Shown here piece by piece: positions 4,187-5,342 of a stretch of DNA of 64,000 nucleotides. The notes beneath the pieces are model-generated. The model was not told where the DNA came from and ran no database searches. It saw nothing but the letters and a program-made list of their open reading frames with translations. Numbering within the stretch: position 1 is the stretch's first letter; the number at the start of each line of letters is the position of its first letter. Position numbers and translations under genes: made by a program. The stretch is from NCBI RefSeq assembly GCF_009689585.1, contig NZ_AP018694.1, forward strand, positions 4,641,501 to 4,705,500, given 5' to 3'. Source of the DNA: Aquipluma nitroreducens (GTDB taxonomy: Bacteria > Bacteroidota > Bacteroidia > Bacteroidales > Prolixibacteraceae).

Positions 4187-5098
4187 TTAAAACAATCCTT
4201 CAATCGATAAATAGCGTTCGCCAGTATCGTAAGCGAAAGTGAGTATTTTTGCTCCTACGGGCAGTTCGGCAATTTTCTTGGCAACAGCAGCCAGTGAAGC
4301 GCCTGACGAAATTCCAACGAACAAACCTTCTTCTTTAGCTGCACGACGGGCATAATCAAAAGCTTCATCTTTCGAAATCTGGATGGTTCCATCAATAGCT
4401 TGCGTATGCAGGTTTACCGGAATAAAACCAGCACCAATTCCCTGAATTGGGTGAGGACCAGGATTTCCACCACTAATTACAGGTGACAATTCTGGCTCAA
4501 CAGCAAAGGTTTTCAGATTTGGGAATTTCTGTTTCAACACTTCGCTTACTCCGGTAATGTGTCCGCCTGTTCCAACTCCGGTGATCAGGTAGTCAAATCC
4601 TTCCGGAAAATCAGCCAGGATTTCTTTCGCAGTATTTTGTTTGTGTGCTTCGATGTTGGATGAATTATCGAATTGAGAAGGAATCCAGGCATCGGGCGTT
4701 TCGGCGGCCAATTCGTTAGCTTTGGCAATAGCGCCTTTCATTCCCAATTCACGTGGTGTTAAAACCAGTTCTGCTCCATATGCAGTAAGGATTCTACGGC
4801 GTTCAATACTCATCGATTCAGGCATAACCAAAATCAGTTTATACTTTTTAACTGCGGCAACCAAGGCCAAACCAATTCCGGTATTTCCTGAAGTTGGTTC
4901 AATCAGAACGCTTCCATGTCTCAAGATTCCTTTTGCTTCGGCATCCTCAACCATCGAAAGAGCGATGCGGTCTTTGATACTGCCGCCCGGGTTGGTTTTT
5001 TCTACTTTTACATACACTTCGTATCCTTCAGGATACAGGTTGTTAATTCGTACCAAAGGACTGTTTCCGATGGTTTCCAAAATGTTGTTTACTTTCAT
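4187..5098 (-). CDS. cysK: Cysteine synthase (O-acetylserine sulfhydrylase)
   Basis: 303 residues, the usual CysK length. It makes L-cysteine from O-acetyl-L-serine and sulfide in the cytoplasm with PLP. Visible: I-G-N-S-P-L-V at the N-terminus, PLP-lysine K42 in N-P-G-G-S-I-K-D-R, the substrate loop T-S-G-N-T-G, the PLP-phosphate loop G-T-G-G-H, and the G-I-G-A-G-F segment. The gene stands alone between two hairpins: its own terminator at 4137-4163 and a terminator in its leader (5140-5169) preceded by a short ORF with three Cys codons in a row. That arrangement points to cysteine-responsive transcription attenuation. No Shine-Dalgarno is apparent, as usual in this phylum. Confidence 0.95.
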
Positions 5099-5139
5099 AT
5101 TATTGTATTTTAAGGTTCTTATCTTTCGTTTCTATTAAC

Positions 5140-5169
5140 AAAAAAAGCCTTCCGGTGTTCGGAAGGCTT
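5140..5169 (-). terminator. Leader terminator (candidate attenuator) upstream of cysK
   Basis: On the minus strand AAGCCTTCCG pairs perfectly with CGGAAGGCTT (10 bp, 5-nt loop) and runs into seven T. It lies after a short Cys-rich ORF and 41 bp before the cysK start, so it cannot terminate anything but the cysK leader or read-through from the ABC genes. The leader segment GAAGGT (5219-5214, minus) can pair with GCCTTC of the stem (5167-5162), a possible antiterminator. Confidence 0.78.
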
Positions 5170-5192
5170 CGATATTATCTCTTTTATGTCTT

Positions 5193-5273
5193 TCAAATGT
5201 TCGTTGAAAACATACCTTCTCCTGACCGTTTATAGCAGCAGCACATATACATGTATGAGAAATTTGCTTTCAT
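5193..5273 (-). CDS. Cysteine-codon leader peptide of cysK
   Basis: A 26-codon ORF not followed by any long frame. Its core reads Y-M-Y-M-C-C-C-Y-K with three consecutive TGC codons (5243-5235), then ends at a TGA 24 bp before the terminator hairpin. Cysteine codons are rare in these genomes, so a run of three directly ahead of the cysteine synthase gene is unlikely by chance. In established amino-acid attenuation (trp, his; Cys-rich upstream ORFs in mycobacteria) ribosome stalling at such codons prevents formation of the terminator. A -7-like box TATACTTG lies 24 bp upstream. The peptide itself probably has no function beyond its translation. Confidence 0.72.
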   Translation of the reverse strand: MKANFSYMYMCCCYKRSGEGMFSTNI

Positions 5274-5296
5274 TCTTTTCTTTAATCTTTGTATTG

Positions 5297-5304
5297 CAAG
5301 TATA
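5297..5304 (-). promoter_or_regulatory. Putative -7 box of the cysK leader
   Basis: TATACTTG on the minus strand fits TAnnTTTG in seven of eight positions and would start RNA some 15-20 nt before the leader-peptide ATG. I could not place a convincing -33 TTG at the usual spacing. Confidence 0.35.
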
Positions 5305-5342
5305 ACAAAAAAGTCAAACAAAATACATTTTTATCTTTTATT

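Follow-up and report, generated by a model that had tools for sequence, protein, structure and literature searches.

The cysK gene of Aquipluma nitroreducens is preceded by a leader ORF with a run of Cys codons and by an intrinsic terminator, which together would constitute a leader-peptide transcription attenuator sensing charged tRNA-Cys. On the evidence of sequence analysis and folding models, the probability of this reading is estimated at about 0.88, and the switch is most likely turned on when the cell is short of cysteine. The sequence-testable features of an attenuator appear to be present at the cysK leader, apart from the 1:2 hairpin outside the window (the window being the whole stretch of 64,000 nucleotides that was analyzed): a short ORF rich in codons for the pathway product lies ahead of a biosynthetic gene, and an intrinsic terminator is placed between the leader and the gene. 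The apparently new element is the Cys-codon version of an attenuator before a Bacteroidota cysK; leader attenuation and, outside this phylum, Cys leaders are already known.

The cysK leader in the window

The features of the locus are listed in Table 1. The coordinates given in the preliminary description for the ORF, the Cys codons, the hairpin and cysK all hold. The cysK protein scores 403.7 bits against TIGR01139 (NCBIfam cut-off 350.95), and the gene upstream of the leader encodes an ABC-2 permease. The terminator hairpin (5170-5144) consists of 10 Watson-Crick pairs and one G-U pair, 11 pairs in all; its stem starts 22 nt after the leader TGA, and the cysK ATG at 5098 lies 41 nt downstream of the T run. 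The RNA from 5290 to 5099 folds at -40.6 kcal/mol (z -4.2), a stability reached by 0/200 shuffles, and segments 1 and 2 are predicted to pair as a protector hairpin (5272-5257 with 5221-5205). An intrinsic-terminator-like hairpin is also observed 3' of cysK on the minus strand (4163-4139), and the cysK transcript is therefore probably monocistronic.

Table 1. Features of the cysK leader locus in the window and of the sulfite reductase locus elsewhere in the same genome
Feature	Position	Strand	Remarks
Promoter -7-like element TATACTTG	5297..5304	minus	putative; 23 nt upstream of leader ATG
Leader peptide ORF MKANFSYMYMCCCYKRSGEGMFSTNI	ATG 5273 to TGA 5195-5193	minus	26 codons; ORF reading
Segment 1	5257..5272	minus	partner of segment 2 in protector hairpin without a ribosome on the leader; folding
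Tandem Cys codons TGC TGC TGC	5243-5235	minus	proposed sensor; codons 11-13 of 26
Segment 2 GAGAAGGT...	5205..5221	minus	alternative partners: segment 1 or terminator 5' arm
Antiterminator core GAAGGT	5219-5214	minus	inside segment 2
Segment 3, terminator 5' arm GAAGCCTTCCG	5160..5170	minus	
Segment 4 CGGAAGGCTTT	5154-5144	minus	part of intrinsic terminator
U tract, seven T	5146-5140	minus	part of intrinsic terminator
cysK, cysteine synthase A	4187..5098	minus	303 aa; TIGR01139; gene proposed as regulated
L226, Met-Cys-Met-Cys leader MNSSLIMAHTMCMCMCMCFNSTFQKVVRI and terminator	G000:C1:21151-20991		
L306, sulfite reductase/siroheme genes behind L226 leader	G000:C1 about 20972-14280		

In the proposed mechanism, transcription would start just upstream of the leader ORF. 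When Cys-tRNA is ample, the ribosome would pass the three Cys codons and reach the leader stop, covering segment 2, upon which segment 3 would pair with segment 4 and RNA polymerase would halt at the U tract. When Cys-tRNA is scarce, the ribosome would stall on the Cys codons and push segment 1 aside; segment 2, now unpaired, could then engage segment 3 before segment 4 has been transcribed, so that the terminator would fail and cysK would be transcribed. If no ribosome is present, the sequence of the window would adopt the 1:2 pairing, and the terminator would prevail. The parts of the putative attenuator, their conservation and their covariation are apparent at the sequence level, and we infer the transcription start, the ribosome stalling and the read-out of the cysK switch.

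Conservation and covariation in Prolixibacteraceae

A cysK search covering 140 Prolixibacteraceae genomes yields 98 orthologues at E ≤ 2.8e-136 (at least 70% identity), and the upstream sequence was read for 96 of them, which leaves aside L015, where the sequence begins within the gene, and the partial G132. An automated rule, framed after leaders had been seen, required an ORF 10-45 codons long, two or more Cys codons in succession within it, and a terminator no more than 110 nt away; it is satisfied by 78/96 orthologous upstream regions (63 of them with at least three adjacent Cys codons) and by 0/960 dinucleotide shuffles. Removal of one spurious match (L021) and one doubtful match (L159), together with the addition by hand of four leaders that the rule had missed (L024, L116, L175 and L179), gives the set used below: 80/96 orthologues, each with a terminator hairpin downstream of a short ORF that contains a Cys cluster. 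At least two adjacent Cys codons are present in 78/80 leaders and at least three in 65/80. No credible leader is found in the remaining 16/96 orthologues, which include all eight of genus g8. Cys accounts for 14.9% of the in-frame codons of the 80 leaders versus 5.4% in the other two frames, a comparison that is partly circular because the leaders were selected for Cys. TGT and TGC interchange (192:97) while the Cys identity is retained. The leader-terminator arrangement in the window is not due to chance.

The antiterminator segment, which takes forms such as GAAGGT, GGGAAAGG and GCAGAAAGG, is located downstream of the Cys codons and ahead of the leader stop; it is complementary to whichever form of the terminator 5' arm (GCCTTC, GGCCTTTCC or GCCTTTCTG) accompanies it. 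Among 77 distinct leaders, segment 2 pairs with its own arm at -12.4 kcal/mol versus -10.7 kcal/mol with the arms of other loci (0/5000 permutations), and the 1:2 pairing is likewise stronger within loci (-14.9 versus -11.6 for swapped partners, 0/5000), these permutation counts ignoring relatedness among the leaders. As a control, segment 1 has no preference for its own arm (-3.1 versus -3.2 kcal/mol when swapped). In a MAFFT alignment, not fitted to structure, of 38 leaders selected below 78% identity, the 2:3 helix is 87.0% paired and has 20 cells with two-sided changes versus 5.4 in shuffles. Sliding the 2:3 partner lowers the pairing to 42-67%, although one-column slides still hold 17 and 14 two-sided cells. 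The terminator stem has two-sided changes at 6/9 pairs.

These results are those of a terminator-excluding antiterminator with covariation, two of the five measures in the 2:3 test being unexceptional: the number of pairs with two-sided change (4 versus 2.7, reached in 112/500 shuffles) and the number of further pair types (13 versus 11.5, reached in 98/500). The preliminary description had proposed a cysteine-sensing attenuator in which GAAGGT pairs with the terminator arm, and conservation in orthologous leaders had been set beforehand as its test. The covariation in the orthologues bears out this pairing, and the conserved and covarying Cys codons, terminator and antiterminator segment support the attenuator interpretation as far as sequence can.

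An element of the form TAn(1-4)TTG, called promoter-like on the basis of the Bacteroidota -7 box consensus, is present 4-40 nt upstream of the leader ATG in 77/80 loci versus 31% of mononucleotide shuffles, by a relaxed test devised after the sequences had been looked at. The TTG ends 4-9 nt upstream of the ATG in 39/80 (shuffles, 8.6% for 4-12 nt), and those leader transcripts may therefore be almost leaderless; the element in the window ends farther from the ATG, at 23 nt, which points to a short 5' UTR there. The strict -7 consensus TANNTTTG is only weakly enriched when one mismatch at most is allowed (62/80, or 77.5%, versus 65% in shuffles) and is matched exactly in 12/80 (15%) versus 5.6%; a -33 box to match the -7-like element of the window is ambiguous. 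The distance from the hairpin to cysK is at most 36 nt in 39/80 loci and at most 50 nt in 65/80, so that a separate cysK promoter would have little space. A cysK transcript starting downstream of 5140 is thus unlikely, given this short gap and the promoter-like element upstream.

These observations bear on an alternative in which the hairpin merely terminates transcription of the ABC permease gene upstream, the cysK promoter follows it and the ORF is accidental. The permease end motif is indeed found upstream of the leader in 67/80 loci, and in L016, L020 and L021 the hairpin comes straight after the permease stop and can therefore serve the permease gene. On this alternative, however, neither the retention of the Cys codons as an amino acid nor the covariation of the terminator arm with segment 2 would be expected, there is scant room for a promoter past the hairpin, and the leader is retained in the 13/80 loci where the permease motif is not seen (some of which have little upstream sequence). 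It is accordingly regarded as improbable. The three loci with the hairpin next to the permease stop are close relatives in which the promoter-leader stretch is absent, and they are apparent natural losses of the switch. The 80 leaders and these apparent losses provide a natural series for studying attenuator evolution.

It is also quite improbable that the Cys response acts through cysK translation or Rho with no intrinsic terminator, as for the mycobacterial polycysteine ORFs. Such a mechanism would suit the leaders of another type that precede a divergent cysK clade of the same family (L205, L206, L209, L210, L212 and L124), in which the Cys run coincides with the ORF end or adjoins it and a clear intrinsic terminator is lacking, whereas the window-type terminator is near-perfect and conserved, with a 5' arm that covaries with segment 2. 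Cys-rich upstream ORFs ahead of mycobacterial sulfur genes are reported to be cysteine-responsive (PMC4633059, accessible text), and translation attenuation is described for polycysteine leaderless short ORFs of mycobacteria (Canestrari 2020, as cited in the accessible text of PMC13236596). Many Prolixibacteraceae leaders resemble them in appearing near-leaderless, by the TTG position in 39/80. According to the accessible part of PMC1262725, the Cys codons of actinobacterial leaders cluster near the stop with no conserved terminator hairpin. The mycobacterial arrangement differs in both respects from the window leader, in which the Cys run lies mid-ORF and not at the C-terminus; a C-terminal run is found in the divergent clade (e.g., L205, L206 and L212).

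In the divergent clade, long Cys runs are found at or close to the end of the ORF, such as ...SNCCNACCCKCCCCC, ...CCCMCCCCC and ...RCCCCCCGL, each immediately followed by the stop. In L212, the Cys codons are able to pair with the cysK start region, a hint of translational control. Outside Prolixibacteraceae, CCC leaders ending in MEDIA or AEDIA and a GCCCTTC terminator are seen upstream of cysK in two Ignavibacteriales (L070 and L084), and in the myxobacterium Pyxidicoccus fallax (L051) the ORF MTLPLTTTGAQCCCCCRVACACCLAGPEHWESA begins 211 nt upstream of cysK. ORFs that recur upstream of cysK in Hymenobacter and Pontibacter were rejected as leaders; by DNA reading, they are the last part of a serine acetyltransferase-like gene immediately upstream of cysK.

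Predicted folding with and without a ribosome

Transcripts truncated before segment 4 were folded with a ribosome footprint blocked, the footprint being assumed to reach from 17 nt behind the A site to 13 nt ahead of it. The mean probability of the 2:3 pairing, P(2:3), over the 80 leaders is 0.52 without a ribosome, 0.74, 0.70 and 0.64 with a ribosome on the first, second and third codon of the cluster, and 0.16 (median 0.004) with a ribosome at the leader stop. In this model, a ribosome on the Cys codons would free the antiterminator and a ribosome at the leader stop would cover it. Opposite structures at the sensor codons and at the stop are predicted by folding for 68/80 leaders, in which the best stall exceeds the leader stop by more than 0.2 in P(2:3); the best stall exceeds the ribosome-free state by the same amount in only 32/80. 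In the window, P(2:3) is 0.11 without a ribosome, 0.56, 0.58 and 0.35 for the three stalls and 0.20 at the stop, values that are in line with the 1:2 protector hairpin there.

P(2:3) is above 0.4 without any ribosome in 50/80 leaders, and because 2:3 forms in this way in many members, the protector hairpin does not seem to be general. Even a ribosome at the stop leaves P(2:3) above 0.4 in 20/80 leaders, L007 and L013, both close relatives, among them. For a ribosome arrested close to the start codon, the mean P(2:3) is 0.71, about equal to that of a stall on the Cys codons, so the folding model alone fails to single out these codons. A ligand-binding riboswitch or T-box with an incidental ORF is extremely improbable: the formation of 2:3 without a ribosome in many members of the folding model would fit it, but no Rfam match in the window reaches the gathering threshold, the sole sub-threshold match on the leader is Phe_leader, which is a leader-peptide family (25.4 bits versus 55), and the conserved part is the coding Cys run.

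Known systems and related leaders in the phylum

Leader-peptide attenuation is classical, as in the trp- and his-type transcription attenuators of enterobacteria. The cysK leader resembles these in its run of product codons within a short leader ORF, in its mutually exclusive antiterminator and terminator and, in the window, in its 1:2 protector hairpin. It differs from them in the amino acid (cysteine), the target (cysK) and the host (Bacteroidota), and in that the protector hairpin cannot be made out in every relative. The uORFC-8-2 motif of Rhodobacterales, a predicted ribosome-mediated transcription attenuator, is likewise a Cys-codon attenuator with a terminal U run (PMC8632094, accessible text); its description sets it apart by two tandem Cys codons, an alphaproteobacterial host and a position upstream of cysS, the cysteinyl-tRNA synthetase gene, whereas the downstream gene in the window is cysK. 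In the same phylum as the window, "strong clues" that amino-acid biosynthesis operons are preceded by leader-peptide attenuators are reported in Flavobacterium psychrophilum (PMC9723704), although the accessible passages on its 5' regulatory RNAs name no Cys leader, and leader-peptide-like ORFs are mentioned for B. thetaiotaomicron (PMC7366714, accessible text). The earlier remark that no description exists in Bacteroidota is too strong because of the attenuation clues in the F. psychrophilum transcriptome paper, as far as its accessible text goes. A Cys leader ahead of cysK in Bacteroidota was not found in the open-licence literature, supplements aside.

A covariance model built from the 38 leaders gives the window a score of 102.6 bits and has 40 matches in the genome of A. 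nitroreducens at E ≤ 10, of which six besides cysK were examined. These include a His-His-His leader upstream of hisG (42.6 bits), an Ile/Val leader upstream of ilvD (29.9 bits) and the Met-Cys-Met-Cys leader L226 with its terminator (36.0 bits), in which the antiterminator pairing is CAGAAGG:CCTTCTG. L226 is followed by genes for a DUF2061 protein and a CysG N-terminal domain, cysJ, cysI, two ORFs and cobA. Across the phylum, 255/394 genomes have a match at E ≤ 0.1, plain terminators included. Seventy-five matched places were inspected (35, six of them in the A. nitroreducens genome, plus another 40), and 32 with a recognizable leader were kept; no credible leader is seen at some of the 75, for example L228, L254, L256, L261, L282, L284, L288, L290 and L296. 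In the 32 selected leaders, segment 2 pairs with its own arm at -11.5 versus -8.8 for swaps (0/5000), and the own arm ranks in the lower half for 6/32 (rank out of 32: the distant cysK leader L242, 23; L259, 26; L264, 32; L279, 24; L289, 20; L303, 32).

By reading, Cys or Met/Cys leaders occur at 15 of the 75 inspected places. They are located before cysK (L242), a peroxiredoxin gene with a cysteine-synthase fragment (L241), a uroporphyrinogen methyltransferase gene (L251), cysH (L258, L274 twice and L286), metY (L271 and L287), metN (L289), and genes for a rhodanese (L266), a carbonic anhydrase-like protein (L248), OsmC (L293) and a transporter ATPase (L303) that comes nearest to the taurine/nitrate kind while scoring under all the cut-offs shown, as well as before the cysJI operon of A. 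nitroreducens (L226). The protein families of these downstream genes were checked. A second sulfur leader stands in tandem at L241, L258, L271, L274 and L286; both leaders of L241 have a terminator, the second containing six adjacent Cys codons, and the second leader of L258 (MHTCMCNNCMCCC) has no clear terminator. At other inspected places, leaders of the Thr/Ile type are found upstream of aspartokinase genes, of the Ile/Val type upstream of ilvD and ilvE, of the Lys/Thr type upstream of asd, of the Lys type upstream of dapA and of the Asn type upstream of asnA. The identities of hisG, one ilvD, one aspartokinase gene, one asd and asnA were checked by protein family, and the other non-sulfur targets were assigned by reading.

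These leaders suggest repeated use of a single leader architecture in the phylum, with versions for Cys, Met, His, Thr, Ile/Val, Lys and Asn. To our knowledge, a general cysteine regulator like CysB or CymR has not been established for Bacteroidota. Tentatively, and at somewhat less than even odds, leader peptides with codon runs may largely control the sulfur amino-acid regulon of the phylum in place of such a protein; this regulon would comprise sulfite reductase, cysH, siroheme, cysK, metY and transporter genes, with some leaders combining Met and Cys and some in tandem. If so, the ribosome would read both sulfur amino acids. The putative cysK attenuator and its Met/Cys and tandem versions before other sulfur genes offer a specific explanation, cheap to test, of how Bacteroidota may sense cysteine.

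Additionally, leaders such as MKFNICN... are seen at L239, L243, L244, L257, L262, L268, L277 and L281. In the family search, the gene downstream of L257 has only an alpha/beta hydrolase match. Loci of this type mostly have a second leader, often ending in ...VC or ...IC, and some of the MKFNICN-type leaders lie 0.8-1.1 kb upstream of a gene that reads as homoserine O-acetyltransferase-like.
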